36,163 nt of DNA, from assembly GCA_902535885.1 (NCBI GenBank), contig CACAVG010000004.1, positions 1 through 36,163 on the forward strand, written 5' to 3'. The notes below the pieces were generated by a model. That model saw nothing but the letters and a program-made list of their open reading frames with translations. It was not told the origin of the DNA and did no database searches. Shown piece after piece: positions 10,207 to 36,163 of the stretch. The position numbers and the translations under genes are program-made. This stretch comes from an uncultured Alphaproteobacteria bacterium (GTDB lineage Bacteria > Pseudomonadota > Alphaproteobacteria > HIMB59 > GCA-002718135). The stretch's first letter is position 1. Each line of letters starts with the position of its first letter.

Positions 10207-10208
10207 TT

Positions 10209-10814: not shown

Positions 10815-10855
10815 GTGAAACTAATTATTGTATTGAGACCTAAATGTAAAACATA

Positions 10856-10888
10856 AAAAAAACGGCACTCGTTAAAGTGCCGTTTTTA
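10856..10888. terminator. Rho-independent (possibly bidirectional) terminator downstream of the porin gene
   Basis: AACGGCACT (10861-10869) CGTTAA AGTGCCGTT (10876-10884), flanked by A-run and T-run. Confidence 0.85.
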
Positions 10889-10906
10889 AAGATATTAAAT
10901 CTTTAA

Positions 10907-11947
10907 TTAAAATGCCATGTTAGCACCGATGTACCAAGCAGATCCATCATTAGTTGATGCACCTTCATCACTTGCTTCAGTACTAGTATAACCAAGTAAT
11001 GCAGTTACACCAGCTGCTACAGCGTAAGATACGCTTGCAGAAGTAGTGTCTAATGAATCAGAAGATCCACCAGTTGAACCATGAGCGTTATCAGTTGATT
11101 CACCAGAAGCAAATCCAACGTTAAACGTTAAGTCCCCAGTTACATACTTAACACCAATTTTTGTAACTTCAGCATCATACTCTCTTGCAGAAGATAAAGC
11201 AGCAGCAGCTACATCACCATCAGCAAAACCAGCTGCCACAGTTAAATCACCAGTTACAGCACTTAGTCCGATATGGTAACCACCAGTGTCATTAGCAACA
11301 GCAGTACCAGTTTTTGAACCGTCAGCAGCAGAAACACCACCACCGATAGTTAATGCAGTATCACCAAGATCAGTTACATATGTTGCACCAATTGCGTAGT
11401 GACTGTCAACTCTGTATGTTGCAGTTGCATCAGCACCAGTATCAGTTGAAGCTGAGAAAGACATTGATAAACCATCTGCTAAGAAATCAGAAGCAGTGTG
11501 ATATTCAACACCTAAGTTAGTTGAAGCAGTTGCAAAGTCTAAGCCATTTGGAGCTGAGTTAGTTGATGTAGTAGCTACACCTTCAGCACCAGCTGAACTT
11601 GGTACAGAGATAGCGTGTGATCCAGAAGCATTACCAGCAGCAATAAGGTCTAGCTTAGAGCCATCAGTAAATGCTAAAGTAAATCCAGCATCGCCGTCAA
11701 CTTTAGTTGTTTCATCCATTACTTTAAAGCTTGATGAAATAGTCATACCACCATCTGTTGTTTCAGATAATGATACTGTAAAGTTGTTATCAAAAGTCTG
11801 AGCATTTGTGTCAGTTCCACCGTTTGGTGAATCAAACTCAATACCAGTTTTGTGGTTACCACTCATAGTAGCTGTTACAGCTTCAGCAACTGAAGCAGCA
11901 CCAAGCGTAGAAACTAGAGCAGTACCCATTAATAGTTCTTTTTTCAT
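10907..11947 (-). CDS. Outer-membrane porin (alphaproteobacterial porin-like beta-barrel)
   Basis: Signal peptide MKKELLMGTALVSTLGAASVAEA, repetitive Gly/Ala/Ser/Thr beta strands, C-terminal aromatic ...WYIGANMAF. Confidence 0.75.
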   Translation of the reverse strand: MKKELLMGTALVSTLGAASVAEAVTATMSGNHKTGIEFDSPNGGTDTNAQTFDNNFTVSLSETTDGGMTISSSFKVMDETTKVDGDAGFTLAFTDGSKLDLIAAGNASGSHAISVPSSAGAEGVATTSTNSAPNGLDFATASTNLGVEYHTASDFLADGLSMSFSASTDTGADATATYRVDSHYAIGATYVTDLGDTALTIGGGVSAADGSKTGTAVANDTGGYHIGLSAVTGDLTVAAGFADGDVAAAALSSAREYDAEVTKIGVKYVTGDLTFNVGFASGESTDNAHGSTGGSSDSLDTTSASVSYAVAAGVTALLGYTSTEASDEGASTNDGSAWYIGANMAF

Positions 11948-13958: not shown

Positions 13959-16143
13959 TTATTATTCCCTCTTCTTCCATTTTTTCAACTATTCTAGCAG
14001 CTCTGTTGTATCCAATTTGAAGATATCGCTGAATATAACTCGTTGAGACTTTTTGTTGTTTAACAACAATATCTACAGCTTTACTATAAAGATCATCTTT
14101 ATTGTCAGATATTAGATCCTCTTTCCCACTCGATGCAATACCTTCCTCAGATAATTTAATTTCTTTATTATAATCAAATGTAGCTTGTTTTTTTATTTCA
14201 TTAACAACCCTATCAACCTCACTTTCAGAAACATAACCCCCGTGTAGTCTTTTAATTATACCTCCATTTTCTAAGAACAACATATCACCGCTGCCTAATA
14301 ATTGTTCTGCTCCCATTTCATTTAAAATCGTTCTACTGTCAAACTTACTAGACACTTTATAACTTATACGACTTGGAAAATTTGCTTTTATAGTACCTGT
14401 AATTACGTCAACACTAGGCCTCTGAGTTGCAGTGATTAAATGAATACCCGATGCTCTTGCCATTTGGGCTAATCTTTGAACTAATGACTCAACATCTTTA
14501 CCTGCCACCATCATTAAGTCAGCCATTTCATCGATCACAACCACAATAAAAGGCATTTTTTCCAATACGATTTCTTGTTTTTCTATAATAGGCATTTTAG
14601 TATCATCATCTATACCTGTTTGAACTTCTCTATATAATTTTCTACCTGATGAAATGGTTTTTAAAACTTTATCATTATAAGAATCTATATTCTTTACATT
14701 CAAAGAACTCATCAACTTATATCTATTTTCCATTTCCCTAACAACCCACTTAAGAGCAAAAACAGCTTTCTTTGGGTCAGTAACAACTGGTGTTAATAAA
14801 TGAGGAATATCTTCATAAATACTTAATTCTAACATTTTAGGATCTATTAAAATTAGCTTACATTCGTTAGGTTTGAATTTATAAAGTATACTCAGTATCA
14901 TGGTGTTTATACCCACTGATTTGCCAGAGCCAGTTGTGCCTGCAATTAAGAGATGCGGCATTCGCTCTAAATTGGCAAAAATACTTTTTCCTGATATATC
15001 TTTTCCCAATGCAAGAGTAAGGGAATCATTTTCAATTTCAAATTCATCTTCTTCAATTAAATCACCAAATAAAACACTATCCCTTTTTGTATTTGGTATT
15101 TCGATACCTAAGCTTGTCTTGCCAGGTTGAGTTGAAATTCTAGCGGATATAGAAGACATTGCTCTAGCAATATCATCAGACAAGCCTATTACTTTACTAG
15201 ATTTTATTCCTGCATTTGGAATAAATTCAAATAAAGTTACAATTGGGCCACTACTAAAACCAACTATTTTTCCTTCTACACCATATTCAGACAGTGTTTT
15301 CTGTAACTTAATAGCAGCATCAGTGTTGATTTTTTCCAACTCTCTGTTTTTATTATTTTTAAAATTTGATTTCGAAAGTAAATTTTTGGATGGAAGGCTA
15401 AAGTTAAAATTATCTAGCTCAAGTTGTTTATTAGCTTTAGAATTATTTTTTTTGTTTAAATTAACATAATTTCTTTTCTTAATTGTTGGCTCACTTTTTA
15501 ATGTTTTTTTTGTAATTTTTTTTCTAAAACTTATATATTTAAATAAACCAAATACAGAAAATAAAAATTTTAAATATTTAAAAACTTTTAAGAAAGAAAA
15601 TAATTTATCTATCCAAGAAAAATTTATTCTAAAAGATACAAATATTAAAACTACACCAAATACTAAAAGTAAAAAATTTATAATAAAATAAATAAAAATA
15701 TTTTCTAGAAGATTTAAATTTATACTTGTAAATAAATCGATTAGAAACTGTGAAATTAAACCTGTTTTTAACAAGGTTATATCAACTGATTTTATGGAAA
15801 CATTAATAAGAATTATTCCAGTCAAGTTCGATAAAAATTTCAAAATTATAAATCTGCTAGTAATACCTAAAAACAATTTTCCACCTTCTAGTATTATAAA
15901 AAAAACCAATAAATAACTTAGTGTTCCAATAAAAATTAATGAATAACTTGATAAATAAGCGCCAAAAAAACCCATAAGATTTTCAATATTGCTGTCATTA
16001 ATATTGTAATTTAATTGATTAAAACCGGGATCATTTGCTGAGTATGAGAAAAGACTGGTAAAATAAATTAAACCAAATCCAAATAAAACTATTCCTACTA
16101 AAAATTTAACAATAAAATTTCTAATTGAACCATACTTGAACAT
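13915..16143 (-). CDS. ftsK: DNA translocase FtsK/SpoIIIE
   Basis: N-terminal TM segments, PHLLIAGTTGSGKSVGINTMI, VVVIDEMADLMMVAGK, ATQRPSVDVITGTIKANFPSRISYKV, C-terminal gamma winged helix (TSYIQRYLQIGYNRAARIVEKME). Confidence 0.96.
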   Translation of the reverse strand: MFKYGSIRNFIVKFLVGIVLFGFGLIYFTSLFSYSANDPGFNQLNYNINDSNIENLMGFFGAYLSSYSLIFIGTLSYLLVFFIILEGGKLFLGITSRFIILKFLSNLTGIILINVSIKSVDITLLKTGLISQFLIDLFTSINLNLLENIFIYFIINFLLLVFGVVLIFVSFRINFSWIDKLFSFLKVFKYLKFLFSVFGLFKYISFRKKITKKTLKSEPTIKKRNYVNLNKKNNSKANKQLELDNFNFSLPSKNLLSKSNFKNNKNRELEKINTDAAIKLQKTLSEYGVEGKIVGFSSGPIVTLFEFIPNAGIKSSKVIGLSDDIARAMSSISARISTQPGKTSLGIEIPNTKRDSVLFGDLIEEDEFEIENDSLTLALGKDISGKSIFANLERMPHLLIAGTTGSGKSVGINTMILSILYKFKPNECKLILIDPKMLELSIYEDIPHLLTPVVTDPKKAVFALKWVVREMENRYKLMSSLNVKNIDSYNDKVLKTISSGRKLYREVQTGIDDDTKMPIIEKQEIVLEKMPFIVVVIDEMADLMMVAGKDVESLVQRLAQMARASGIHLITATQRPSVDVITGTIKANFPSRISYKVSSKFDSRTILNEMGAEQLLGSGDMLFLENGGIIKRLHGGYVSESEVDRVVNEIKKQATFDYNKEIKLSEEGIASSGKEDLISDNKDDLYSKAVDIVVKQQKVSTSYIQRYLQIGYNRAARIVEKMEEEGIISEANNAGKRHVLKK

Positions 16144-16190
16144 ATAGTTAGATTGTAATACATTTAGATTATGGTAATTCGAAGAAAATT

Positions 16191-17372
16191 ATGAAAGAAA
16201 TTCAATCAAACATCAATATAATAGGAGGGGGCCTTATAGGAGCTGTTACAGCATATTCACTTTCTAAACTTGGCAATAAAGTAGTAGTTTTAGAGCAAAA
16301 TGCTAAATTTAATCATAAAAATATTTTAGACAAAAGAACAACAGCAATTTCAGAGGGTACGAAAAAATTTCTTGAAGAAATAAATATTTGGAATGAAATT
16401 GGTAATTATGCAGAACCAATAAAGAATATTCAGATAATAGACAGAAATCAATCAAACAAAATTTATTTTGACAACCAAAGAAGAAAATCCAATCTTGGAT
16501 ATATAGTTAAAAACGAATTTATACTAGATTGCTTGTATAAAAAATTACAAAAACAAAAAAATGTAAAAATTTTTAATAATGTTTCTGTTAAAGATATTTT
16601 TTATCAAGGCGACAGGATCACAACCAAGCAAAATAATTTCTATGTTAATACAAATATTCTATTTGCGTGTGATGGGAAAAACAGCTCTATAAGAAAAATT
16701 TTTAAAACACCAATTTATAGAAAAGATTATAAAAAAAAAGCAATAGTAATAAATTTTTACCACTCTAAGAATCACAATAACACTGCTTATGAGTTCTTCT
16801 TTAAAAACGGACCTCTTGCAATTTTACCAATGCAAAAAAATAAAAATCAGTTTCAAAGTTCCATAGTTTGGACAAACACCAATAAATTTATACACTCTTT
16901 ACTTTCTTTAGATGATAATAATATTATTTCCATTCTTAACGAAAAAACACAAGGAGGTGTAGGTGAGATAAAAAAAATAATTACCAAACAAACCTTTCCT
17001 TTAAAAGCTCATTTAAACTCTAAATTTTTTGAGAATAGAATTATTTATTTAGGTGATTCAGCACACTCTTTTCATCCAATTGCAGGGCAAGGATGGAATC
17101 TAGGCATGCAAGATGTAGAAAGTGTATATAATCTTGTTAAAAAATATAACTCTTTAGGTTTGGAATTGGGAGATGAAATATTTTGTAAAGAATTTCAGAA
17201 AGATAATTTTTTCAAAGCTTATAGGCTATATCAAATTACTGATAAAGTTGATAGTGTGTTTAAATTAGACAATACAATTTTTAATTATGCAAGGTTTTCA
17301 GTAATCAATTTAATTGAGAAAAGTAAAAAACTAAAAAATCAGATAAGTGATTTTGCCATGGGTGTTAATTAA
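16191..17372 (+). CDS. UbiH/Coq6 family FAD-dependent monooxygenase
   Basis: GGGLIGAVTAYSLSKLGNKVVVLEQ, YLGDSAHSFHPIAGQGWNLGMQDVESV. Confidence 0.87.
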   Translation: MKEIQSNINIIGGGLIGAVTAYSLSKLGNKVVVLEQNAKFNHKNILDKRTTAISEGTKKFLEEINIWNEIGNYAEPIKNIQIIDRNQSNKIYFDNQRRKSNLGYIVKNEFILDCLYKKLQKQKNVKIFNNVSVKDIFYQGDRITTKQNNFYVNTNILFACDGKNSSIRKIFKTPIYRKDYKKKAIVINFYHSKNHNNTAYEFFFKNGPLAILPMQKNKNQFQSSIVWTNTNKFIHSLLSLDDNNIISILNEKTQGGVGEIKKIITKQTFPLKAHLNSKFFENRIIYLGDSAHSFHPIAGQGWNLGMQDVESVYNLVKKYNSLGLELGDEIFCKEFQKDNFFKAYRLYQITDKVDSVFKLDNTIFNYARFSVINLIEKSKKLKNQISDFAMGVN

Positions 17373-23695: not shown

Positions 23696-23770
23696 GCGGG
23701 CGTAGCTCAGGGGTAGAGCGCAACCTTGCCAAGGTTGAAGTCGAGGGTTCGAATCCCTTCGCCCGCTCCA
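23696..23770 (+). tRNA. tRNA-Gly(GCC), CCA encoded; left attachment site of island 1
   Basis: GCGGGCG TA GCTC..GAGC G CAACC TTGCCAA GGTTG AAGTC GAGGG TTCGAAT CCCTC.. CGCCCGC T CCA: full cloverleaf, anticodon GCC. Confidence 0.96.
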
Positions 23771-23837: not shown

Positions 23838-23855
23838 TTGTGACTGAGTTGTGAC
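23838..23855 (+). repeat. Left-end arm-type repeat pair TTGTGAC-TGAG-TTGTGAC (island 1)
   Basis: Two exact 7-mers at 11-bp period; same arrangement and orientation at 30153-30170. Confidence 0.7.
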
Positions 23856-24129: not shown

Positions 24130-24363
24130 ATGGAAATAGTAGGTGCTGTAATAACTCTAATAGTTATTGGTATTATTATTGGCATTATAGTAATTCCAAC
24201 ATACTTTATTGAAAACTTAAAAAAAAATGAGAATACTAATAAATTGCTGAAAAAAAATTTTCTTTGGGCAGACGTTCAATCATTTATATATCTTATACTT
24301 TTAATTTTAGGAATTTTATTAGTTGGATTTGTGTTTACTAATCTGGGAGTTGTACTTTTTTAA
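24130..24363 (+). CDS. Small membrane protein, unknown function
   Basis: 77 aa, two hydrophobic segments. Confidence 0.45.
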   Translation: MEIVGAVITLIVIGIIIGIIVIPTYFIENLKKNENTNKLLKKNFLWADVQSFIYLILLILGILLVGFVFTNLGVVLF

Positions 24364-24401: not shown

Positions 24402-25877
24402 TTAAGAAGATACCCAAGAATACCAACCACTTATATAACTCTCATACAAACCATCATCATTACTTAACACTAAGTTAGCAACCTGTTCTGACCCTACTAT
24501 TTGTTCTTCTGGTTGAATTTCGAGTGGAACTTCTACTTCAAAGTTATCTCTTATTTTGGTTAAAGAACTTTTAACTTTAATCATCGTCTTCATCAGTTTT
24601 TTGTATTCATGTTTCATTTGCGCTCTTAAAGATAATTCAAAGCCAACAGGAACAATGAAGCTATCATGAATGGGTAGTATAACAATATTCTGTTTTTGAA
24701 AGAAGGTCATCAAGCGTTGAGCTATAATTGAATCAAGAAACATTAATTCTAAACCAACACCAGTACTAAAATGATGAACAATAGGTTTATGATAGGTGTT
24801 AACCAGCTTGTTAAGTTGATAATGAGTAAGTTTAAGTTCTTTTAGTTCAGATTTTTTTAACCTGTACTTACCCCCTTCATCATTCAACAATGCATTGGTA
24901 TATAGTTTAACTAGTTCCCTTGCTCTAGTTAAGTATTTGGTATTACCTGTTAGCCCCAAGTCATATAAATCCCTGTCAACATCCATTGGAATGTTTTCTT
25001 TTGAGTATAGTAATCGTAGAGACATCGTTGAGAAGTCAACCTCTACAGTTTTCTTGCCATTAATTGTTATATGATGGCGGTATTTAGAGGGTATAGATTG
25101 CCACCAACCCCCATAAAATCTTCCACCAAGATTATTTTTACCCCTTGCAAATACTCTTCTTAAATGGGTTAAAGAATAGTTAATCGTGTTGTCATGCTCC
25201 TCATTAAAAAAACTTCTTTGTTTTTTTTTCTTATTTAATTCATGAATAATTTTTTTGAATTGGCTATTAGAAACATCCAAAGCAATACAATTTTTACTAA
25301 TAAACTGATTAAAAGATAATAATCGTTTTTGTTGTTGTTTGTAAAAGTCAGTTTTAGGAAGAGGCAGAGTAATTTTTTTGTATTTCTTTTTTTTACCTGT
25401 TGTTTTTACTCTGTCTCTTTTAAATACAAATGTTTCGTCTTTATCTGGAGGGTAATAACGCCACTGAAACCCTATCTTATCTAATAATTTCTCAAGTGTT
25501 CTACTATGTTTAATTCTTGTTACCTGTCTTCGTACTTCACTCCCCTTTATAAGAGTAACTAAACCCCCATTTTCAAGAGCATTAATAACTTTTTTAACAT
25601 TTTTATATCCATATTTTTTACCAGAATAATATTTGGCAGTTAAATTTATTGAGACTAAGTTTTTAGGGAAACTAAAATGTGAGAGGTAAAGAGCATTGAC
25701 TAAATGAATAGTAATATTTCTTTCATTCAACCTTGTATCCGTTGTTACTCCTTTCGTTGTTTTTCTTGAAGACTCAATTTGGGAAAAAACCTTCTCGATA
25801 ATTTTATCTAGTAAGTTGTCTTTTGAAATAGGATACCAATCAAAAAGTTTGTCGTTCATATTTCTTAAAGATAACAC
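24402..25877 (-). CDS. Putative replication protein with possible winged-helix N-terminus and family A / single-subunit polymerase-like palm
   Basis: GGRFYGGWWQSIPSKYRHHITINGKKTVEVDFSTMSLRLLY (motif A-like, D281), TRARELVKLYTNALLN (R-x3-K O-helix-like), IVILPIHDSFIVP (motif C HDS, D405). Confidence 0.6.
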   Translation of the reverse strand: MLSLRNMNDKLFDWYPISKDNLLDKIIEKVFSQIESSRKTTKGVTTDTRLNERNITIHLVNALYLSHFSFPKNLVSINLTAKYYSGKKYGYKNVKKVINALENGGLVTLIKGSEVRRQVTRIKHSRTLEKLLDKIGFQWRYYPPDKDETFVFKRDRVKTTGKKKKYKKITLPLPKTDFYKQQQKRLLSFNQFISKNCIALDVSNSQFKKIIHELNKKKKQRSFFNEEHDNTINYSLTHLRRVFARGKNNLGGRFYGGWWQSIPSKYRHHITINGKKTVEVDFSTMSLRLLYSKENIPMDVDRDLYDLGLTGNTKYLTRARELVKLYTNALLNDEGGKYRLKKSELKELKLTHYQLNKLVNTYHKPIVHHFSTGVGLELMFLDSIIAQRLMTFFQKQNIVILPIHDSFIVPVGFELSLRAQMKHEYKKLMKTMIKVKSSLTKIRDNFEVEVPLEIQPEEQIVGSEQVANLVLSNDDGLYESYISGWYSWVSS

Positions 25878-25921: not shown

Positions 25922-26497
25922 GTGGCACTAATTAAACGTTATGTATTATTTTTTTTCTCCCTGTTAATCATTAATATCCTTCTAGTTGGTGCCACCATAG
26001 CAAATGCTTCATCAATAGGTATTAATGATGATTTACCTAGTTGGAGGATTGAGCCCATAGATAATGATGGTGTGTTAATATCAAGAAATGGTCAAGTCCA
26101 AGTAGGTGATAATTTATATTTCTATATTTCTAAATCAAATTGTAACCACTTAGAGAATTTGTTTAGTTTTTATACCGCTAATAATCATCCTCGCATCAAC
26201 ATGCTATTGGAAGAAAAGGTTTATATTAAAATTAATAATACATCTGGTTGGGCAAAGGTACGTTTTATCTATCCTTTTTTAATGGGTCATTCAGTATGGT
26301 TATCATTAGGTATGTTTAATATGGATGATTTTGCTGAAACACTTAAGCCCCATGATAAATTTGAAGTTGTTATTATTGATAAAGAAAACTTTGTTGCAAA
26401 AGAATATTTTGATATTGAAACCAACTATTGGTATCTCGAAGGCTTAGAAAACGCTCTTCGCAGAGGAAAAAATCTATGTCTAGCCTCATCCTCCTAG
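25922..26497 (+). CDS. Secreted/membrane-anchored protein, unknown function (GTG start)
   Basis: N-terminal signal/TM segment then a soluble domain; divergent from the polymerase-like gene. Confidence 0.6.
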   Translation: MALIKRYVLFFFSLLIINILLVGATIANASSIGINDDLPSWRIEPIDNDGVLISRNGQVQVGDNLYFYISKSNCNHLENLFSFYTANNHPRINMLLEEKVYIKINNTSGWAKVRFIYPFLMGHSVWLSLGMFNMDDFAETLKPHDKFEVVIIDKENFVAKEYFDIETNYWYLEGLENALRRGKNLCLASSS

Positions 26498-26529: not shown

Positions 26530-27219
26530 ATGAGAATATTTTCATTCTTTATATCTTCTATAATTCTATTAATTTTTTCTTATTTTGTTTTTGTTCCAAC
26601 AATGGGTTTTTATAAAAATGATATTAAGCCTTTAATGAATGGTTATAAAAAAATAGATAAAAGTAATTTAAAACATAACCATGAAAATATTAATGAAGAT
26701 ATATTTATGTATATTCATTACCTTGTTACGTTTGATGAAGAGGCAAGACAATTTTATTCAATAGAAGAAGCAAATCTAAATGAAGCTTATCTTAGTTGTG
26801 TTGAAGATAATAAAATCTTTAATATTTCCTGTATGAAAACCCTACAAAATAAAGGTCAGAAATTTTTAATTGATGATAAATGTGCCTGGACTTTTTTTGG
26901 GCACTCAAGCGTGGCTAGAGATAAAGATTATTATCTTGTCAGTATGGAAGAAAAAATGTGTGGAACATTTTTAGCTCGTTTTAATACTTATTATGTTTTT
27001 GAATATAAGGATGATTATTTGAGAGTAACTAATGCTTTTTTAACTGGAAAGGATATCTTTAATCCAATTAAATACTATAAAATAAATGATGATAGCTTCT
27101 CTTTTGTTACTGAGGCATGTGCTCATGGAGCAGATACCTGTTGGGGAAGTAAGGCAGATTGGTTGGAGTTAAAATTTGAATATAATCTTAAACAAAATCA
27201 TGTATTACAAAAATTGTAG
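26530..27219 (+). CDS. Membrane-anchored or secreted protein, unknown function
   Basis: N-terminal TM; long ORF with several Cys residues; convergent with the 658-aa gene. Confidence 0.6.
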   Translation: MRIFSFFISSIILLIFSYFVFVPTMGFYKNDIKPLMNGYKKIDKSNLKHNHENINEDIFMYIHYLVTFDEEARQFYSIEEANLNEAYLSCVEDNKIFNISCMKTLQNKGQKFLIDDKCAWTFFGHSSVARDKDYYLVSMEEKMCGTFLARFNTYYVFEYKDDYLRVTNAFLTGKDIFNPIKYYKINDDSFSFVTEACAHGADTCWGSKADWLELKFEYNLKQNHVLQKL

Positions 27220-27223
27220 GATA

Positions 27224-29200
27224 TTAATTACTCCAATAATTATTATTTTTATTAATTCGTTTTGAAATAATATTTATTTTTTCTTCAGCAGAAAAAAATT
27301 CAAGATAATCTACGAACTGTTTCTTTTTTTTGATTAAGCTACTTGCATTGATAAGTAGTTTATTTTTTTTCTTTTTAATTGCTTCTTGTATTACAAAAGA
27401 CTCTTTTGAAGGGTCAATTTTTTCCAGTATGAAGAATGCTGAAGTAAAATCTTCTTTTTTAAGTAGGTGCTTAAATATCTTTTGTAAAAAGTCATATTTG
27501 TATTCTTCAGTATTTATAGAAGTCTTGTTTTTATCTTCAGGAATATATTTTTCAACATACCAATTAGCAATCTTAATTGACTCTGAAAACATATCGTTCA
27601 CAAGTAAATGGTCAAGAAAATCTTCAATCTCGGAAATTTGCCAACTAAATACAGAACTAGTTGTTTCTTTATTTACAAAATCATCAACAAAAGTTGTAAC
27701 TTGTTTTTTGTATTCATTATCTAAATATGACTTTGATGAATAAATTAATAAATCAACAGCTAGTCTAGTGTCATAAACAACAACATCATCTTTATGTTTG
27801 AAAAAAGACTTTTCAAAAATAGGTTCAGAACTTTTTACTTCATTCCACTTATCTATAACTTGAATTGTAAAATTTTTATCATGATTTATTACTGATGCCT
27901 CTGCCAATCTAGATAATAAATAATTTTTAACACCATCTCTCATTGTTGTATTAGCTATCAAATCATTAGCTTCAGAAAATAGTTCAACATTTATAAGAAA
28001 TAAAATAATATTTTTTGCTTCTACCTCGTTCATTACTTTATTATTCAAATTAGAATTCACTACCCAGGTTTTGGCTAGAATTTTTGCAAGTTCATTTTCT
28101 TTATATCTTAAGGCATAATTTGCTAAACTAAGATAAAGATTATCAATTTTTTCACTTTCAGTTTCTCCTTTTGCAAACTTATTTGCTTGATTAAATATAA
28201 CTTTATTTATCTCCTCTAATGCCCCCTTTTTATGCTCATCTGATAATTCTTTAAAATCTTTAATTAAGTTATCTACTATGATTCCAAGTTCAATTGTATC
28301 TACATCAACATTTGTTAGCTGAGAAACTTCATTAATTATTTTGGGATACCACTTGTAAATATCTTGCAAAGATTGTTTATCTATTTTTTCCAATAAAAAA
28401 TATTTACGGAAATAACTTTTCGCTAAATCTAGTTCATTTTCCTTAATAAAAAAAACTAAGATATCAGTAATGTTAAATTCAAATTCACTCTTATTCATTC
28501 TAGATGTAAATTCATTACCTTTTTCAAGATATTGTTTTAAACAATCAATATTTTTAAGACTAAAACATACGCTAATTAACCATTCGTGATTTGGTCTAAT
28601 TTCATCTACGCTCAATTTAAAAAAACGATTAGTCAAATCATCAAAAATAATTTCAGATGAAAGAGAATTTTTTTCAATTAATATTTCTAATATTTGAGCA
28701 TTGTATGAAAGTAAATCAGAAGTAGAATAAAGTGTATCATTTGTAAACAAATCTTCATGTTCTTTGAGCAAGAACAACATCTTGACTTCATTTTTATCTT
28801 TTTTAGAAAAATAGAAAAGATTTACAATTGCACTTTTTTTTGAGTAATTTTCAAGTTTTAATGCATAATCATAAGCACTATCAAATCCATATGTGTAATA
28901 CAAATATGCTATAAAAGAATCTTGAATATACGAATTGTTAATAAATTCATTATTTAAATCTTGTTCATTATAGTTATCTTTCATCACTTCATAAATATAC
29001 AATGCTTTCGCTTTAAATCCGTGTTCACTTAATCCTTTAATAACATCTGATAGATAAAACCATTCTATTTTATCTAGATTACTAACCTTCGGAATGGTTT
29101 CTATTAATTTATCTGCGTAAAAAATAGTGTCTTCATGTAGTTTCTCTTTTGCAAAAGCCAAATTAGAAAATAAAAAAAATATTAACACAATTTTTTTCAT
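27224..29200 (-). CDS. Large secreted helical-repeat (TPR/Sel1-like appearance) protein, unknown function
   Basis: Signal peptide MKKIVLIFFLFSNLAFA; repeated helical segments; ATGA overlap with the integrase stop. Confidence 0.65.
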   Translation of the reverse strand: MKKIVLIFFLFSNLAFAKEKLHEDTIFYADKLIETIPKVSNLDKIEWFYLSDVIKGLSEHGFKAKALYIYEVMKDNYNEQDLNNEFINNSYIQDSFIAYLYYTYGFDSAYDYALKLENYSKKSAIVNLFYFSKKDKNEVKMLFLLKEHEDLFTNDTLYSTSDLLSYNAQILEILIEKNSLSSEIIFDDLTNRFFKLSVDEIRPNHEWLISVCFSLKNIDCLKQYLEKGNEFTSRMNKSEFEFNITDILVFFIKENELDLAKSYFRKYFLLEKIDKQSLQDIYKWYPKIINEVSQLTNVDVDTIELGIIVDNLIKDFKELSDEHKKGALEEINKVIFNQANKFAKGETESEKIDNLYLSLANYALRYKENELAKILAKTWVVNSNLNNKVMNEVEAKNIILFLINVELFSEANDLIANTTMRDGVKNYLLSRLAEASVINHDKNFTIQVIDKWNEVKSSEPIFEKSFFKHKDDVVVYDTRLAVDLLIYSSKSYLDNEYKKQVTTFVDDFVNKETTSSVFSWQISEIEDFLDHLLVNDMFSESIKIANWYVEKYIPEDKNKTSINTEEYKYDFLQKIFKHLLKKEDFTSAFFILEKIDPSKESFVIQEAIKKKKNKLLINASSLIKKKKQFVDYLEFFSAEEKINIISKRINKNNNYWSN

Positions 29201-30141
29201 AGCTTTTTTAATATATCCTCTGCTTTTAAATGAGTATATCTAAAAAGCATTCTTACATCTTTATGTCCAGAAATTAAGGCTACTTCAGGAATACTTAACC
29301 CTTTTTCAAAGAACCGTGAGATAGCTTCATGGCGTAAATCATGGAAGTGTAAATCTTTAATGCTAGCTTTATTTTTTAATCTTTCCCAAGCTAATCTAAC
29401 TGCATTTGCAGACATTGAAAAAGGAAGTTTTGATTTATGCAAAACATATTTAGCTCTTTCAGTCAGAGGAATTAATCTTTGATGACCGTTCTTTGTTATA
29501 GGTACTAATAGTGTGTTAGCTTTGATGTGTTCTTTTTTTATATTTAAAATTTCACCACGTCTCATGCCAGTTTCAATTGCTATCTCAATTATATTTCTAA
29601 GAGTGTTCTGAGAATAGTTTCCTTTAACTAAATAATTATATTCATATTCAGTTAATCTTCTTTCCCTTTTTTGAAAAACTTTTGGTTTAGTTAAATTGTT
29701 ACAAGGATTATTAATTTCATAACCCCATTCTCTTTTTAAAATATTAAAGAAATGTCTAATTAAATTTAGTTCTCTTAGAAATGTTGATGCTTTAACCTTT
29801 TCTAATCTTAAATCTCTATATTCAGATAAGTGTTTAGTTGTAATCTGATTTACAGGTAAGTTAGAAAAAGAAGTTTTTAAGAAATTATTAAAACAATACT
29901 TCTCAAATTCATAACCTCTTTTTTTTATTGAAATATTATTAATATATTTTTCAATTAGTTTTCTTGTTACTGGAAATTTTTGTGGTCTATATTTTATAGC
30001 ACATCTTTGAAGTTCTATCTCTTTCTCTCTTCCCCATTGCAATGCATCTTTTTTATTAATAAATGTTTTACTTGTAGCTCCACAATTTTTTATTCTTATT
30101 TGGATTTGCCATTTATTATTTCTTTTTCGTAGTGTTGCCAT
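29197..30141 (-). CDS. Tyrosine recombinase / phage-type integrase
   Basis: IETGMRRGEIL (catalytic R), HDLRHEAISRFFEKG (HxxR), ISGHKDVRMLFRYTH (H...Y); arm-binding-like N-terminus MATLRKRNNKWQIQIRIK. Confidence 0.95.
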   Translation of the reverse strand: MATLRKRNNKWQIQIRIKNCGATSKTFINKKDALQWGREKEIELQRCAIKYRPQKFPVTRKLIEKYINNISIKKRGYEFEKYCFNNFLKTSFSNLPVNQITTKHLSEYRDLRLEKVKASTFLRELNLIRHFFNILKREWGYEINNPCNNLTKPKVFQKRERRLTEYEYNYLVKGNYSQNTLRNIIEIAIETGMRRGEILNIKKEHIKANTLLVPITKNGHQRLIPLTERAKYVLHKSKLPFSMSANAVRLAWERLKNKASIKDLHFHDLRHEAISRFFEKGLSIPEVALISGHKDVRMLFRYTHLKAEDILKKL

Positions 30142-30152
30142 TTGATATCTCC

Positions 30153-30170
30153 TTGTGACACAGTTGTGAC
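30153..30170 (+). repeat. Right-end arm-type repeat pair TTGTGAC-ACAG-TTGTGAC (island 1)
   Basis: Same heptamer and 11-bp period as at 23838-23855; lies between the integrase start and the second att copy. Confidence 0.7.
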
Positions 30171-30202: not shown

Positions 30203-30277
30203 AGGGGCGTAGCTCAGGGGTAGAGCGCAACCTTGCCAAGGTTGAAGTCGAGGGTTCGAATCCCTTCGCCCGCTCCA
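30203..30277 (+). pseudogene. Near-complete tRNA-Gly(GCC) pseudo-copy: island 1 right att / island 2 left att
   Basis: Identical to 23696-23770 except the first two acceptor bases (AG instead of GC), which break pairs 1-72 and 2-71; no TTGACT promoter upstream. Confidence 0.85.
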
Positions 30278-30299
30278 AATATTGAGCGGGTTAGATTTA

Positions 30300-30321
30300 A
30301 ACGCTCCACTTACGATCCAAT
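30300..30321 (+). repeat. Left-end arm-type repeat of island 2: AACGCTCCACTTACGATCCAAT
   Basis: 20/22 identical to 33844-33865; heptamers ACGCTCC/ACGATCC at 11-bp period. Confidence 0.65.
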
Positions 30322-30353
30322 AGAGCCAAGCTTTTCCTAGAAAGAGAGAAATT

Positions 30354-30602
30354 ATGGCTACTATTCAAAAGCGTAAATATTTAAATAAAACTAGTTACCA
30401 AGTTCGTATAAGGCGATTAGGCATAAAGACAATAACCAAATCTTTCCTCACGAGAACCGAAGCCAAAAGGTGGTCTAGGTCCATGGAAACAAAATTAGAT
30501 AAAGGCGATTACTCGGATTATTCAACAGCTTCCAAAGTAACATTGGGCGATCTTTTTAAACGTTATATTTTTCCAAAATATTCTGCACAATATCGCTGTT
30601 GA
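30354..30602 (+). pseudogene. 5' remnant of a phage-type integrase gene (catalytic domain missing)
   Basis: MATIQKRKYLNKTSYQVRIRRLGIKTITKSFLTRTEAKRWSRSMETKLDKGDYSDYSTASKVTLGDLFKRY is a typical arm-binding/core-binding start, then it runs into the 3' end of the opposite-strand gene. Confidence 0.75.
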
Positions 30603-30769
30603 ACTGCTACTTGTTTGTCAGACATTCCAGGTTTCATAGTCCTTTCTCCAACACACTCATGAAAACTATCATAAGTGAAGAAGTTTTTATAAATTAAATA
30701 ACCAATAATTATCAAAATTACAGAAAATATAATAAGTCCTATCAGTCTAGTCTTTTCATCTTTATTCAT
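30563..30769 (-). CDS. Small single-TM protein, unknown function
   Basis: One TM then a conserved-looking Cys-containing tail (FHECVGERTMKPGMSDKQVAVQQRYC). Confidence 0.5.
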   Translation of the reverse strand: MNKDEKTRLIGLIIFSVILIIIGYLIYKNFFTYDSFHECVGERTMKPGMSDKQVAVQQRYCAEYFGKI

Positions 30770-30778
30770 TAAAATATC

Positions 30779-31147
30779 CTACAAACAAATATCTTTAATA
30801 GAGACAAAAAATAATACGCCCATTGGCTCACTCCATCTTTCAGGGTTATTTGTTAGGTATTTTTCTACAATAGCACGCAACTGTTTATTATTTTCTATTT
30901 TATCCATTAAGCATTTTTTAAGTTCACTAATATCTGAAAGAGCTTCATCAGAGGTACCAATATTTAAATATAACCTTGAAGAGAGTAAACCATCAGCTAC
31001 CCCAATTAAATAATTAGATTTTTCTATATTTGTTAATTTTAAATAATCATTACCTGATAAATAACCCTCATAAACTAATCTTGTTTGGGAATAAGAATAG
31101 TTTGTTAACATTAAAAAAATACTAGTTAATAATAAAAAACATCTCAT
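30779..31147 (-). CDS. Secreted small protein, possibly Rap1a/Tai-like
   Basis: Signal peptide; YLIGVADGLL...LKKCLMDK...IVEKYLTNNPERWSEPMGVLFFVSIKDIC pattern. Confidence 0.45.
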   Translation of the reverse strand: MRCFLLLTSIFLMLTNYSYSQTRLVYEGYLSGNDYLKLTNIEKSNYLIGVADGLLSSRLYLNIGTSDEALSDISELKKCLMDKIENNKQLRAIVEKYLTNNPERWSEPMGVLFFVSIKDICL

Positions 31148-31156
31148 ACTTTACTC

Positions 31157-31182
31157 TACCACCAACTAAGAAGATTGTTAAG
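31157..31182 (-). promoter_or_regulatory. 26-bp repeated leader element, copy 1
   Basis: + strand TACCACCAACTAAGAAGATTGTTAAG, ending 9 nt upstream of the ATG at 31147. Confidence 0.65.
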
Positions 31183-31216
31183 ATCTTCAGACGTCAAATA
31201 TTTAATATAATATAAG

Positions 31217-31723
31217 CTACAAAATATAACTGTAATCATTCTCTCCTTTAAAAAAGCACTGACCTAAGTCAGTTTTATTATCGTAATAATAAACAAATAA
31301 ACCACCATGTATCTTGCTAATAACTAAATTAACAAAGTCAGTTTCATTAATAGTATTTTTATTACTTTCTATTGAAGTTTTGATTTCCAACCATTCAGTT
31401 TTTAAACTTTCTGGTATTTCATAGTATTCAATAGTTTGTATAAATTTATCAAGATTAAAACGAATATTTAAATGAAGCATATTCCTAGATTCATTTTTGA
31501 CATCACCAATTAATATTTTTGTAACGTCCCATCCAAGATTTTCAAAATAGGAAAAAAAATGATCATCAAATTTCCTATTAAAATATATTTTATCAATTTT
31601 ATTATTATCAAAATTTACATCGAGGTAAATTCTCTCTTTAGGAGTATCTTTTAGTAGGCATTCTATTGTCATAGCGTTAACAGAAAAATTACATACTAGG
31701 ATAAATATGATTAAGTATTTCAT
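31217..31723 (-). CDS. Small secreted two-cysteine protein, unknown function
   Basis: Signal peptide MKYLIIFILVCNFSVNA; Cys just after it and near the C-terminus (ECLLKD...GQCFFKG). Confidence 0.55.
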   Translation of the reverse strand: MKYLIIFILVCNFSVNAMTIECLLKDTPKERIYLDVNFDNNKIDKIYFNRKFDDHFFSYFENLGWDVTKILIGDVKNESRNMLHLNIRFNLDKFIQTIEYYEIPESLKTEWLEIKTSIESNKNTINETDFVNLVISKIHGGLFVYYYDNKTDLGQCFFKGENDYSYIL

Positions 31724-31914
31724 TTATCCTCCTTGTTTTTTCTTCGAAGTTCACGAGTTACAACTAGTTTTGGTTTCTTGAAATCTTTTTTCTCTCTATC
31801 CCATTCAAAATATGGGCCAACGTGAATAGTCATAGACGGTTTAGAAAGATCTAGACCACTTTCTTTTTTTACAATTTTGATAAACTCTTCAGAACTAACT
31901 TTTTTAAGAGGCAT
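31720..31914 (-). CDS. Small cytoplasmic basic protein, unknown function
   Basis: 64 aa; 4-nt overlap with the downstream gene. Confidence 0.4.
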   Translation of the reverse strand: MPLKKVSSEEFIKIVKKESGLDLSKPSMTIHVGPYFEWDREKKDFKKPKLVVTRELRRKNKEDK

Positions 31915-32002
31915 TTTAACTCCTTTAGCGTTTTATTTATTGTCCCAGCAATTAGAGTATCTAAATTAGGACAATTAATTCATAACATTTTTTTATAGAA
32001 AT

Positions 32003-32548
32003 TTAAAACTTATTATTTTTAATTTCACAATTCCAATCTAGACTTAGGCCAGAGAATTCTTCATCAAAAAATTCATTGAATCTCTCAGAATAAACAGAGA
32101 TATTCCCATTAGATCTATTTATTGAAACATGAATATCAGACTCACCATAATTTGTTCTGTGAGGCCATGCTCGAAATAATAAACTCCCATTTGTTTCCTT
32201 TATTAAAGGAATAGGCTCATCATTAAATTGAACTGTTAAACTTTTATATTGTCCAAAGATATTTTTATTTATCTCAAAGTAAGCAGCTCTATCTTCTATT
32301 TTCAAATCAGAAGAAGATATTGTTTTTTTAAAATCTCTATAATCTTGCCAAAAAATCCTTTCAAAAGAATATTTTAATTCCTCAAATTCGTTTTTTTTAT
32401 TTTGATTAAATTTTTCTGAATCTAAAAAATCACTTACTTGAAACTTAAAGTAAGTCCACGATTGTTTATCAACTTCGCACAAAAGTCTTTCAACTGAAAA
32501 TGCGCTTGTACAAAAAAATAAAATTATAAGGGTTGTAAAAATTTTCAT
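32003..32548 (-). CDS. Small secreted two-cysteine protein, unknown function
   Basis: Signal peptide; LLCEVDK...SLDWNCEIKNNKF. Confidence 0.55.
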   Translation of the reverse strand: MKIFTTLIILFFCTSAFSVERLLCEVDKQSWTYFKFQVSDFLDSEKFNQNKKNEFEELKYSFERIFWQDYRDFKKTISSSDLKIEDRAAYFEINKNIFGQYKSLTVQFNDEPIPLIKETNGSLLFRAWPHRTNYGESDIHVSINRSNGNISVYSERFNEFFDEEFSGLSLDWNCEIKNNKF

Positions 32549-32937
32549 TTTAACTTCTCATTAATTTCATTTAATTTTTCTAAAATTTTTTCTTGTGCCT
32601 CAGCTTTTGTTTGATAATTATAGTTTATTAATCGATAGAGATTGCCTAAAATAGTAAGTCCTCCCAATATTACTATTATAACATCTCCACTCAATCCAAT
32701 TGCAAAAAGAAATATAAAAACAATATACAAACGTATTAAATCATCTTTGATAGATCCATTTTCTTTAAGAAAAAATTTAGTAATTAAAAACCCAATAAAA
32801 ATTAGAACTGGGACAAGAATTATTACTCTTAATAAAACAAAATAGTAAAGGGCATCAATCAATCTATAAGCGAACTCCAGTTTTTCACTAAGTTCCAAAC
32901 TGTAAATAAAGCTTAAAGCACTGTCTAGAAATTCCAT
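32545..32937 (-). CDS. Small membrane protein, unknown function (start reassigned from 32955 to 32937)
   Basis: Multiple TM segments. The called TTG start lies inside the repeated leader; the internal ATG (MEFLDSALSF) is 9 nt from the leader, like copy 1. Confidence 0.5.
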   Translation of the reverse strand: MEFLDSALSFIYSLELSEKLEFAYRLIDALYYFVLLRVIILVPVLIFIGFLITKFFLKENGSIKDDLIRLYIVFIFLFAIGLSGDVIIVILGGLTILGNLYRLINYNYQTKAEAQEKILEKLNEINEKLK

Positions 32938-32946
32938 TATTAATAC

Positions 32947-32972
32947 TACCACCAACCGTAGAGATTGTTAAG
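32947..32972 (-). promoter_or_regulatory. 26-bp repeated leader element, copy 2
   Basis: + strand TACCACCAACCGTAGAGATTGTTAAG, 9 nt upstream of the ATG at 32937. Confidence 0.65.
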
Positions 32973-33011
32973 TATTCTGGTCAAAAGTATTTAATTTGGT
33001 ATATTCAAAAT

Positions 33012-33272
33012 ATGGATTTCTTGCAATTCAAAGATCTAATTCAACAAACAGGTTATTTAATATTAACTTTGATAATAGCTGCTTCTGTAATTAGCTCACT
33101 TCAAACTATATCAATCCGAATAAATAAAAATGAAATTTCATCTATTGGATTTTTTCTCACCCTTTTTGGTTACACAGTTTTATACGTGATTTTCATTACA
33201 TTTCTAATAGCGTTATTAGCAACTCTTTATAATTTCCTTTTAGATTTTGTAGGACAAGGACCATTTTTTTAG
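33012..33272 (+). CDS. Small membrane protein, unknown function
   Basis: 86 aa with two TM segments; overlaps the next ORF by 1 nt. Confidence 0.45.
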   Translation: MDFLQFKDLIQQTGYLILTLIIAASVISSLQTISIRINKNEISSIGFFLTLFGYTVLYVIFITFLIALLATLYNFLLDFVGQGPFF

Positions 33273-33595
33273 TGAATAAAGTTTTTTTTATAATCTTATT
33301 ATTTTTTTCAACGAGTGTTTTTGCTGAAACATATATTTGCGGATTTGAAAGTGACGGAGAAACTAAAACACAAAAATTTGAAAGATTTGGATTTGATTAT
33401 TTTAAAAAAGAAAATGGATCATTAGAAAATATTATTTTTGAAAACGAGCTTTTTATTCATATTCATACTATTGTCGAACCAGGTACATGGGCAGTACTTA
33501 GGATAATTGACAAAAGAAATAATAAATATACTCAATCACTTGTTGGTAATGATCTACCACCAAATAAGATCACAGGAATTTGTGTTAAAAATTAA
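33272..33595 (+). CDS. Small secreted two-cysteine protein, unknown function (GTG start)
   Basis: Signal peptide NKVFFIILLFFSTSVFA; ETYICGFES...ITGICVKN. Confidence 0.5.
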   Translation: MNKVFFIILLFFSTSVFAETYICGFESDGETKTQKFERFGFDYFKKENGSLENIIFENELFIHIHTIVEPGTWAVLRIIDKRNNKYTQSLVGNDLPPNKITGICVKN

Positions 33596-33668
33596 TTGAA
33601 TAGAGTTCATACCAATAACTAGAAAAGACCACATACTTAAATAATACTTAAGGGCAGTCGAACCACAC

Positions 33669-33842
33669 TACCACAGTTAAAACTCCATTTTTACGTTCTT
33701 ACGTAAATCGCAAACGTAAATATTTAATTTATTTATTAGATTTACGAAAAGAACTGTGGTCTGTGGTGAACTGTCAAAAAACTCAAGTAATCATTGAAAA
33801 ATTAGACCCACAGTAATTTTTTTTAACTGTGGTAACTGTGGT
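33669..33842. repeat. Iteron-like noncoding repeat cluster (AACTGTGGT family, plus inverted repeats)
   Basis: Perfect 14-bp inverted repeat 33669-33682 / 33821-33834; tandem AACTGTGGT 33825-33842; ACTGTGGTCTGTGGT 33753-33767; TTTACGTT 33690-33697 / AACGTAAA 33713-33720. Confidence 0.7.
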
Positions 33843-33843
33843 G

Positions 33844-33865
33844 AACGCTCCTCTTACGCTCCAAT
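33844..33865 (+). repeat. Right-end arm-type repeat of island 2: AACGCTCCTCTTACGCTCCAAT
   Basis: Exact ACGCTCC heptamers at 11-bp period; 20/22 match to 30300-30321. Confidence 0.65.
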
Positions 33866-33930
33866 CAAAAAAAGAATTCAATTTTTATGATATAGTTTCT
33901 TTAGGAAAAGGCCGATCTCAATTGTACATG

Positions 33931-33981
33931 GCAACCTTGCCAAGGTTGAAGTCGAGGGTTCGAATCCCTTCGCCCGCTCCA
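33931..33981 (+). repeat. 51-bp 3' fragment of tRNA-Gly(GCC): right att of island 2
   Basis: Exact match to the 3' 51 nt of the intact tRNA (GCAACCTTGCCAAGG...CGCCCGCTCCA). Confidence 0.9.
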
Positions 33982-34070
33982 ACGTTTCTGCCGTTTTTTC
34001 CAATCAAGTTTTTAGATAGCACCTCAGAGTCGAGCGTGTGTCGATAATCACTTTCAGAAAGAGAGTGAAA

Positions 34071-34130
34071 ATGGCGTATATTAAAAACGTAAACATAAAT
34101 TTTCAACAACCAATGAGATTGTTTATTATT
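34071..34130 (+). pseudogene. Very short, frameshifted 5' remnant of a second integrase gene
   Basis: AGAAAGAGAGTGAAAATGGCGTATATTAAAAACGTAAACATAAA aligns with AGAAAGAGAGAAATTATGGCTACTATTCAAAAGCGTAAATATTTAAA at 30340; adding one A gives MAYIKKRKHK, like MATIQKRKY. Confidence 0.5.
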
Positions 34131-34707
34131 TTTTATTCAGCAGTTTAATTAATAATTTTGCATATTCTCTGGCATCATCTATGGCTTTATGCGTATGTTT
34201 TGTATTATCATGCAATTCTAGAGAGTAATCATCTCTACCTATGTCTCTATAATCTTTTTGTAGCACAGCAGCAGCATAGGATTTGATATCAAAGGCTGCT
34301 TGTCCATTCTTATCAAAAAAAGGCATAGAGAAAGGAATTTTTTCTAATCGTTCTGTAAGAAAAGTTTGAATATACCAATTGATCCACATAAAATCTAATG
34401 GAGCTGGATGAGCAGCCATAACTCGTGGGGTTGGTAACGTGAGAAGCCAATCACCAAATTTATTCATTCCTTCTTTGGGTGAGACTTGATTATGCTGAGT
34501 ATGTTTTAAAGCTTCTGGCGCTTCTGTTGTAAACCAATGCATAGTAGCGGGGTGAGGTTTGGCATTTTCTAGTGGCAAGAAATTAATTTCACATTCTCCA
34601 AAATTTTCTCCTTCTTTATTAACGGCTACAGCACCAAGGCTTATCATAGAATGTGTTCCTGGAATAGGTCCGTCCGCTTCTATGTCACACACAACATAAG
34701 TAGTCAT
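34126..34707 (-). CDS. DEDDh 3'-5' exonuclease (RNase T / DNA pol III epsilon-like); start reassigned from 34731 to 34707
   Basis: VVCDIEADG, HPAPLDFMW, HKAIDDAREYAKLL. The called TTG start lies inside the repeated leader. Confidence 0.8.
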   Translation of the reverse strand: MTTYVVCDIEADGPIPGTHSMISLGAVAVNKEGENFGECEINFLPLENAKPHPATMHWFTTEAPEALKHTQHNQVSPKEGMNKFGDWLLTLPTPRVMAAHPAPLDFMWINWYIQTFLTERLEKIPFSMPFFDKNGQAAFDIKSYAAAVLQKDYRDIGRDDYSLELHDNTKHTHKAIDDAREYAKLLIKLLNKK

Positions 34708-34718
34708 AGTTGAATTAT

Positions 34719-34744
34719 TACCACTAACCAAGGAGATTGTTAAG
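34719..34744 (-). promoter_or_regulatory. 26-bp repeated leader element, copy 3
   Basis: + strand TACCACTAACCAAGGAGATTGTTAAG, 11 nt upstream of the ATG at 34707. Confidence 0.65.
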
Positions 34745-35039
34745 GGGTCTGTTTATATGGGAAGTTTGTATTTACTGTGTAAAGTTTTAAGTTTGATGTC
34801 GTGATATCCAATAATAGATAAAAAAAATAAATAGGAGTACGATAGCTGCCAGAAAGAATAATCTTATTCCAGTTAAATAGAAGGATTGTTATTTATGTTT
34901 TACATTAACATTTGATACTGTTGTTCCAAAAAATACTGTTAAAAAAAATTGAATATTAAAATTTACGATAAAATAAAAAAACTTCATCTTACTTTTTTTC
35001 CTTCAACGTACAGTCAGTTATCTCTCGACTTACATTCGT

Positions 35040-35208
35040 CAATTTATAGCATAAGACGAAGTCTCCTACAATTACCCCAATCTTCAGTGAAGCTCAAAAA
35101 CAAGATTTCTGAGAAATGATTAAACTCTCAGTGAAGTTTTTCCAAAAACCTATATACTGCTTAAAGAATGGGATCTGTGACACGCAACAGAACGCCCCAC
35201 TTTTTTTA
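35040..35208 (+). ncRNA. Possible structured noncoding RNA or transcript end in a ~580-bp gene-free gap
   Basis: CTGAGA/TCTCAG hairpin (35109-35131), duplicated TCAGTGAAG (35084-35092, 35128-35136), imperfect TGGG..CTGT/ACAG..CCCA hairpin followed by T7 at 35201-35207. Confidence 0.25.
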
Positions 35209-35327
35209 TATTATTCAGTAATATCAATAATTTTTTATAAAAATCTCTCTACGAAGTTTACTACGAAGGAAAATATATAATTTATTATTAAATAATGTAA
35301 ATTTTTGGATCTATTTTAACAAATTAA

Positions 35328-35852
35328 TTGATAATGAATTATGAGTCTGAACTAACTGGTGGTCATCCAAATTCACTAGGTAATACAATAAAAGTTGTTG
35401 AACATGTTATTGTTAAAAAAAATAGAATTAATTCATTAATTAAGTGTTATTCAAGCACAGACCAAATAGTAAGATTAAGAACATCAAATGCTTTTAAAAG
35501 AATTTTTAGACAAAAACCAGAATGGTTTTTAGATTTTAAACATATTTTCTTAAACAAAATTTCAAAGATAAAACAATCTTCCATACAATGGACCTGCGCT
35601 CAATTATTTTCAGAATTAGTTAATCAATTAGAAAATAAAGAACAAAAAAAAGCAAAAAAAATTGTATCTGATTATCTTAATAATTCCAGTGATTGGATTG
35701 TTTTATGTCAATCAATGAATGCTCTAATAACTTTCAATAAAATTGATAATAAAACAATAAAAGAAAATATAAAAATTATTAAAAAACTATCAAAAGATAG
35801 AAGAAAGGCAGTTTCTAGACTAGCAAAGAAATTATTATCCTTAATTAAATAA
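35328..35852 (+). CDS. HEAT-repeat-like helical protein
   Basis: Repeated two-helix pattern (STDQIVRLRTSNAFKRIFRQKPEWF, IQWTCAQLFSELVNQL). Confidence 0.5.
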   Translation: MIMNYESELTGGHPNSLGNTIKVVEHVIVKKNRINSLIKCYSSTDQIVRLRTSNAFKRIFRQKPEWFLDFKHIFLNKISKIKQSSIQWTCAQLFSELVNQLENKEQKKAKKIVSDYLNNSSDWIVLCQSMNALITFNKIDNKTIKENIKIIKKLSKDRRKAVSRLAKKLLSLIK

Positions 35853-36089
35853 AAAATAAATAAACATTAAGAAAAAAACAATAGCTGCTAAAACAATAAA
35901 CCACCAAAAAATTATGTAAAACCAATCCCAAAATACTCCAACAAATTTGTATCTTTTTTTTAATTTGGAATTAAACTGATCTAAGCGACCAATTATATAA
36001 AACACAATAAATAATCCTATAGCCCATTGAATTGCTTCTATTTGAAGTAGGCCTAAAACAGTGGAATAAATATAATCTATTATAGGCAT
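35841..36089 (-). CDS. Small membrane protein, unknown function
   Basis: 82 aa, two TM segments. Confidence 0.45.
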   Translation of the reverse strand: MPIIDYIYSTVLGLLQIEAIQWAIGLFIVFYIIGRLDQFNSKLKKRYKFVGVFWDWFYIIFWWFIVLAAIVFFLMFIYFLFN

Positions 36090-36163
36090 TCCAAATATTA
36101 CCTCATTTTATATAAATTTTTTATAAAATTTTTTTTAGCTAATGGACGTTAAAGGTATTTTTC

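Follow-up and report, generated by a model that had tools for sequence, protein, structure and literature searches.

What does a small polymerase gene do on a mobile element lodged between two copies of a tRNA gene, in a marine-type bacterium whose genome also has a separate, ordinary PolA? The gene in question lies in a 36,163-nt stretch from an uncultured alphaproteobacterium of the HIMB59 lineage (contig CACAVG010000004.1, positions 1 to 36,163, assembly GCA_902535885.1; hereafter the window), on an element of about 6.5 kb, here called element A, that occupies a tRNA-Gly(GCC) site. The original prediction, made from the letters of the DNA, described a 491-aa protein with family A/T7 RNA polymerase-like catalytic motifs and a possible winged-helix N-terminus, and proposed that it served a mobile element as a combined initiator and polymerase. 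The analysis below indicates that the protein is probably a winged helix-fused member of the TV-Pol family, a minimal relative of DNA polymerase I and T7 RNA polymerase, and that it would replicate element A, which brings its own integrase. The features on which this argument turns are as follows.

24402-25877, minus strand: TV-Pol-like polymerase, 491 aa, GTG start at 25877 (PHROG_4756 match, alignment, model)
25506-25742, minus strand: predicted winged helix-turn-helix domain, codons 46-124 (secondary structure of the models)
24567-25160, minus strand: codons 240-437, beta-hairpin (R253), palm and fingers (alignment, model, hhalign)
25035-25037, minus strand: catalytic codon D281
24918-24920, minus strand: catalytic codon R320
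24906-24908, minus strand: catalytic codon K324
24663-24665, minus strand: catalytic codon D405

The open reading frame (ORF) runs uninterrupted from 25877 to 24402. Its GTG codon is a plausible start, because a GAGGA Shine-Dalgarno sequence lies just upstream and because a sister element of genome G069, described below, has the same start context and also the residues VLSLRN. The motifs quoted in the original prediction, which gave no strand, do occur at the residues indicated: D281 in the motif A-like KTVEVDFS, R320 and K324 in TRARELVK, and D405 in ILPIHDSFIVP. Are these residues conserved, as catalytic residues should be? Counted in an alignment of 76 homologues, D281, R320, K324 and D405 are identical throughout, as are G252, R253 and R267, while E279, D303 (73/76), Y305, N332, H404 (74/76) and S406 (70/76) are nearly invariant. 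The relatives, at 20-30% identity, come from Vibrio and Pseudoalteromonas phages, Thioclava and Paracoccus plasmids and large viral contigs; they were also found in 32 of 385 alphaproteobacterial genomes, in gammaproteobacterial and deltaproteobacterial contigs, and in some contigs of metagenome-assembled genomes labelled Clostridia and Acidimicrobiales. Curated libraries recognise the protein through a single entry, PHROG_4756 (residues 236-434, E=3e-35), which carries no assigned function; Pfam, NCBIfam and PDB sequence searches returned nothing significant.

The fold was approached through an AlphaFold model built on the same alignment (mean predicted local distance difference test score, pLDDT, 83.5; predicted template modelling score, pTM, 0.84), which displays thumb, palm and fingers. 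The thumb consists of two antiparallel helices (177-194 and 204-221) placed directly before a beta-hairpin (strands 240-244 and 251-255) that holds the invariant R253. The first 31 PDB structure matches are family A DNA polymerases (apicoplast Pol, Bst, Taq, Aquifex), with a best E of 5e-5 and 26 of them below 1e-3, and the next is mitochondrial RNA polymerase (E 1.3e-3). Whole-chain template modelling (TM) scores reach no more than about 0.3, a low value that is to be expected if the polymerase core alone is common to both chains. Among viral structures the model matched uncharacterised phage proteins (E 1e-21), one of them annotated ‘DNA polymerase’, and the replication protein of the Zamilon virophage (E 2e-3). 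Unconstrained hhalign against 55 PolA sequences paired all catalytic motifs in order, bringing GRFYG, D281, R320/K324 and HD404/405 opposite their PolA equivalents; comparisons with a shallow PolA profile and with T7 RNA polymerase alone were not significant. Together, model and alignments support a right-hand core of the family A/T7 RNA polymerase type, seemingly closer to DNA polymerase I. The original prediction had staked itself beforehand on a palm and on the conservation of D281 and D405; the palm is there, and neither aspartate varies. It was also borne out in denying the protein a 3'-5' exonuclease domain, which neither the Pfam, NCBIfam and PDB sequence searches nor the model reveal; indeed, no fused nuclease domain of any kind appears in the family searches or the model.

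What precedes the core? The helix-turn-helix character suspected for residues ~50-145 takes shape in the models as a winged helix at residues 46-124: a helix (46-69), a strand (74-78), two helices (81-84 and 91-103) and a two-stranded wing (107-110 and 119-124), seen both in the full-length model and in one of the N-terminal part alone (pLDDT 77). PDB matches of the latter are winged helices of MarR type, and plasmid Rep and DnaD N-terminal domains are also among them. As none falls below E 1e-3, the modelled winged helix is supported as a fold class, and a specific relative is not.

Such a combination of parts has a precedent. TV-Pol was described in 2008 by Iyer, Abhiman and Aravind as a predicted primase and polymerase of mobile elements, marked by a two-helix thumb, a hairpin Arg, two palm Asp residues, and an Asp plus RxxxK in the fingers; the available part of that description also gives a subset with an extra N-terminal domain, predicted to be all-helical, neighbourhoods with lambda-type integrases or resolvases, a distribution over alphaproteobacteria and other bacteria, and a species list with Loktanella, Sulfitobacter and Paracoccus (PMC2579912). 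All four signatures are present here (the two-helix thumb, R253, D281/D405, and D303 with R320/K324), together with the lack of a fused nuclease, a mobile-element neighbourhood with an integrase, and an extra N-terminal domain, though one modelled as a winged helix with strands; the same three genera also yielded relatives in the present searches. A HMMER search of phage Ma-LMM01 with the family profile found no relative, and hhalign to a 506-aa protein of that phage, a Microcystis phage gene hand-picked from transposase neighbours as a likely TV-Pol, paired motif A, K324 and N332 (p=0.0042). The case for membership of TV-Pol, a family known since 2008, is thus strong but not absolute, since the best comparison with the 2008 sequences is this hand-picked protein at p=0.004.

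If the polymerase serves a mobile element, where does the element begin and end? Element A is delimited by the following features.

23696-23770, plus strand: tRNA-Gly(GCC), chromosomal, left attachment site; the two tRNA copies are identical, and the neighbour is conserved in relatives
23838-23855, unstranded: left arm-type repeat TTGTGAC-TG-AGTTGTGAC, 68 nt inside the tRNA and at the same place in sister elements
29197-30141, minus strand: tyrosine integrase, 314 aa (Phage_integrase E=1.8e-24; PHROG_1 E=9.8e-52)
30153-30170, unstranded: right arm-type repeat TTGTGAC-AC-AGTTGTGAC, with the integrase gene on one side and the tRNA on the other
30203-30277, plus strand: second full-length tRNA-Gly(GCC), right attachment site

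The left tRNA-Gly stands downstream of a gene for a 272-aa membrane protein, the same neighbour as in relatives. The TTGTGAC-NN-AGTTGTGAC repeats just inside both ends match what is expected of integrase arm sites, and the integrase, which adjoins the second tRNA, is full length and 92% identical to integrases of other genomes. It is this conjunction of duplicated tRNA-Gly, arm-type repeats at both ends and integrase that defines the element, and with it the mobile location originally proposed for the polymerase is supported.

The tRNA-Gly gene is an insertion hotspot within the genus, many genomes having one or more partial copies of it, and comparison among its occupants is instructive. Genome G069 carries a 10.4-kb element at the same site. 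In DNA it is 88-92% identical to element A at the left end, across the integrase (91%) and the right end, and in the gene for a 191-aa protein, and yet its polymerase is only 27% identical to that of the window. A tree places the window polymerase with contigs of Marinobacterium and Hyphomonas (the first of these pairings has support 0.985), and that of G069, with weaker support, among Pelagibacteraceae elements. Like backbones, dissimilar polymerases and different tree relatives indicate that the polymerase module has been replaced between the two elements. Four of six sister elements (G018, G070, G063 and G054) have the same integrase and arm repeats without the polymerase. A slot beside the integrase holds type I restriction-modification genes in G018, type III in G069 and G070, a DndB-like protein in G063, and a 658-aa protein in element A. 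Loci L267, L268 and L269 (G018, G070 and G063) are thus same-integrase tRNA-Gly elements with interchangeable defence cargo; the DndB-like protein of G063 is accompanied by an uncharacterised 778-aa partner. Separately, polymerase-less sister elements share a conserved, uncharacterised 169-aa protein (NHYGNNTPDGEY...; L268 9411-9920, with equivalents in L267 and L270), whose gene might take over replication or control in them.

Is the link between polymerase and tRNA-integrated element peculiar to this site? A survey of 78 homologous loci, with 20 PolA loci as control, answers in the negative: the polymerase family is associated with such elements elsewhere too. An integrase lies within 10 kb at 56 of the 78 loci, a tRNA within 400 nt of the integrase at 32, and an 18-77 nt tRNA-derived repeat stands beyond the polymerase, on its far side, at 23 (21 of the 43 with full flanks), several of these repeats being just 18-20 nt and hence weaker; a resolvase cluster was seen at 11 loci. 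The PolA control yielded no integrase and no such repeat, and only four of its loci had a tRNA at all. The bounded polymerase elements measure about 7-15 kb, sit at 13 tRNA isotypes and carry varied cargo, including restriction-modification and other DNA-modification genes.

Two further observations concern the wider family. In a sister family of bacteria within the same order, a TV-Pol-like gene has NDG, not HDS, in motif C (L006-L010, L012 and L013); in seven genomes it adjoins tRNA-Cys and the same conserved gene, and it may be an insertion that became fixed long ago and whose active site has changed. A deltaproteobacterial contig (L132) holds two different family members, at 9773-11452 on the plus strand and 15566-17314 on the minus strand, with an integrase and a tRNA-Leu between them, which suggests adjacent elements.

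The other genes of element A are these.

24130-24363, plus strand: 77-aa small membrane-protein-like ORF
25922-26497, plus strand: 191-aa protein with an N-terminal hydrophobic segment, divergent to the polymerase
26530-27219, plus strand: 229-aa protein, 88% identical copy in the G063 element
27224-29200, minus strand: 658-aa protein with a signal-peptide-like N-terminus, in the slot of the restriction-modification or DndB-like genes of sister elements

No known family matched the 191-, 229- and 658-aa proteins. The 191-aa protein is 94% identical in the G069 element and 47-49% in two polymerase-less elements; neither it nor the 658-aa protein has relatives in the viral contigs searched, and the latter is absent from the other same-genus genomes searched (101 genomes). 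It is possible that this exported 658-aa protein represents a new kind of defence gene. Beyond element A, the last 51 nt of tRNA-Gly recur at 33931-33981 and close a second tandem insertion at the same site, element B (30278-33981). Its integrase ORF (30354-30602) is truncated, and it also encodes several small exported proteins, one of which is Rap1a-like (30779-31147, E 3.4e-5). Next comes a probable third insertion (33982-36163), where a repeat at 34056 resembles an integrase start and a gene at 34126-34731 encodes a DnaQ-like exonuclease (RNase_T E 1.1e-6).

How might these parts work together? Excision, DNA recognition, priming, synthesis and replication would follow one another in a simple order: the integrase would excise element A as a circle, the winged helix would bind a site on it, the core would prime and/or extend a DNA strand using the host helicase and other replisome parts, and the element would be copied before re-integration or transfer. 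The polymerase is the sole recognisable replication gene of element A. Several observations weigh against this scheme. Neither helicase, single-stranded DNA-binding protein (SSB) nor iteron-type origin was found in element A, and a search of it and of the conserved left end for iterons or palindromes gave no convincing origin. No close relative of the element turned up in viral contigs, where the best integrase relative reaches 33%, and so there is no sign of packaging. Absence from four of six sister elements means that the polymerase is not needed for this type of element to persist. Finally, significance by sequence comparison never became clear: p stayed at 0.004-0.013 in local-mode hhalign against the 55 PolA sequences, for which reason the identification as a polymerase rests on structure and invariance.

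Could the polymerase then be cargo, serving for example in anti-phage defence or repair, or making DNA or RNA that hinders phages? Its replacement by a 27%-identical counterpart in a near-identical backbone is cargo-like, its sister elements carry restriction-modification or DndB-like genes, four of them without any polymerase, and phages and large viral contigs have family members too. However, no PADLOC model matches it, it lies apart from the defence slot adjoining the integrase, and in unrelated elements integrase and polymerase are constant while the cargo varies, all of which makes this explanation unlikely. A T7-type RNA polymerase or transcriptional regulator, with the winged helix on a promoter and the core transcribing the element's genes, is less probable still. 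The original prediction had correctly read HDS in motif C, as in the HDSF of T7 RNA polymerase, but its use as a pointer to that enzyme has to be abandoned, because S406 is simply the family consensus and the structure is nearer DNA polymerase I. The match to mitochondrial RNA polymerase and the lack of conservation at the DNA polymerase steric-gate positions (see below) would suit a transcribing enzyme; against it speak the stronger DNA polymerase matches, a length of 491 aa versus 883 aa in T7 RNA polymerase, and an Asn at the Tyr639 position in 71 of 76 homologues. That the gene is a non-functional relic on a decaying island of tandem insertions appears very improbable: the truncated integrase ORF of element B and the integrase-start remnant near 34056 do attest to decay nearby, whereas the polymerase keeps an intact frame behind a good ribosome-binding site and has lost none of the invariant residues, and element A has a full-length integrase closely similar to those of other genomes. 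Replication of element A by its own polymerase thus remains the preferred reading; of the initiator-plus-polymerase proposal, the fold, the modelled winged helix and the mobile location stand, and the argument from the T7-type triad does not.

Which nucleotides would such an enzyme use? Across the 76 homologues the steric-gate positions of DNA polymerases are not conserved: the Glu710 position of DNA polymerase I (motif A +5) is His in 60 and Ser286 in this protein, the F762 position is Leu or Asn (here Asn328), and the Y766/Tyr639 position (Lys+8 of motif B) is mostly Asn (here Asn332). On alignment grounds, these replaced sugar-selecting residues would add to what was described for the family. 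It is tempting, if rather speculative, to picture a one-protein replication starter, in which a winged-helix origin binder joined to a primase-polymerase copies small defence islands that lack a helicase of their own, and whose pocket (His/Ser in motif A, Asn at Lys+8) differs from those of DNA polymerase I, T7 RNA polymerase and CcPol and may take both ribonucleoside and deoxyribonucleoside triphosphates (rNTPs and dNTPs). In the literature searched, the TV-Pol name occurs in just five papers, and an 18-year-old prediction has gained biochemistry nearly limited to CcPol. Here the element is complete and has defined boundaries, the enzyme is small and intact, and a close sister bears a swapped polymerase; the locus therefore offers a clean system for the primase question, and it connects TV-Pol-like enzymes with the way defence genes spread among bacteria with streamlined genomes.

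How does the system compare with those already known? DNA polymerase I has in common with it palm, fingers and thumb, a DYS motif A, an RxxxK motif B, an HD motif C and a GRxxx..Q-x-IP hairpin; by contrast, the protein described here has no 5' or 3' nuclease domains, HDS in place of HDE, a modelled winged-helix N-terminus, and replacements at the Glu710 and Tyr766 positions. T7-type RNA polymerase resembles it in the HDSF motif C and a related palm, but is much longer, has Tyr639 where Asn332 stands here, and possesses a promoter-recognition domain of which none is seen in the model. Tycheposons, compared by description only, likewise join a tRNA attachment site, a tyrosine recombinase, swappable cargo and a streamlined host; the available part of their description gives them as 4-200 kb and often metabolic, and mentions no polymerase (PMC10872708). 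CcPol of SCCmec, classed as a TV-Pol, makes DNA primers de novo with MP, the OB-fold partner encoded beside it, and the CcPol-MP and PolA-SSB primases are, like the window protein, family A polymerases of mobile elements (PMC7581432, PMC10061031); in 2020 no other TV-Pol member with biochemistry was known (PMC7581432). CcPol retains the E710 and F762 equivalents, which select dNTPs (PMC7581432, PMC10061031), whereas the present family mostly has His (Ser286 here) and Leu or Asn (Asn328 here), and the helicase adjacent to CcPol-MP was not found in element A. With the TV-Pol family of 2008, finally, the protein shares the four signatures, freedom from nucleases, integrase neighbours and, with a subset, an N-terminal domain, all-helical by prediction there and modelled as a winged helix here; the D5-like helicase was not found in this element. 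Relative to the available part of that description (PMC2579912), the winged-helix assignment, the element boundaries, the swapping of polymerases and the defence-cargo slot are what the present locus newly contributes.
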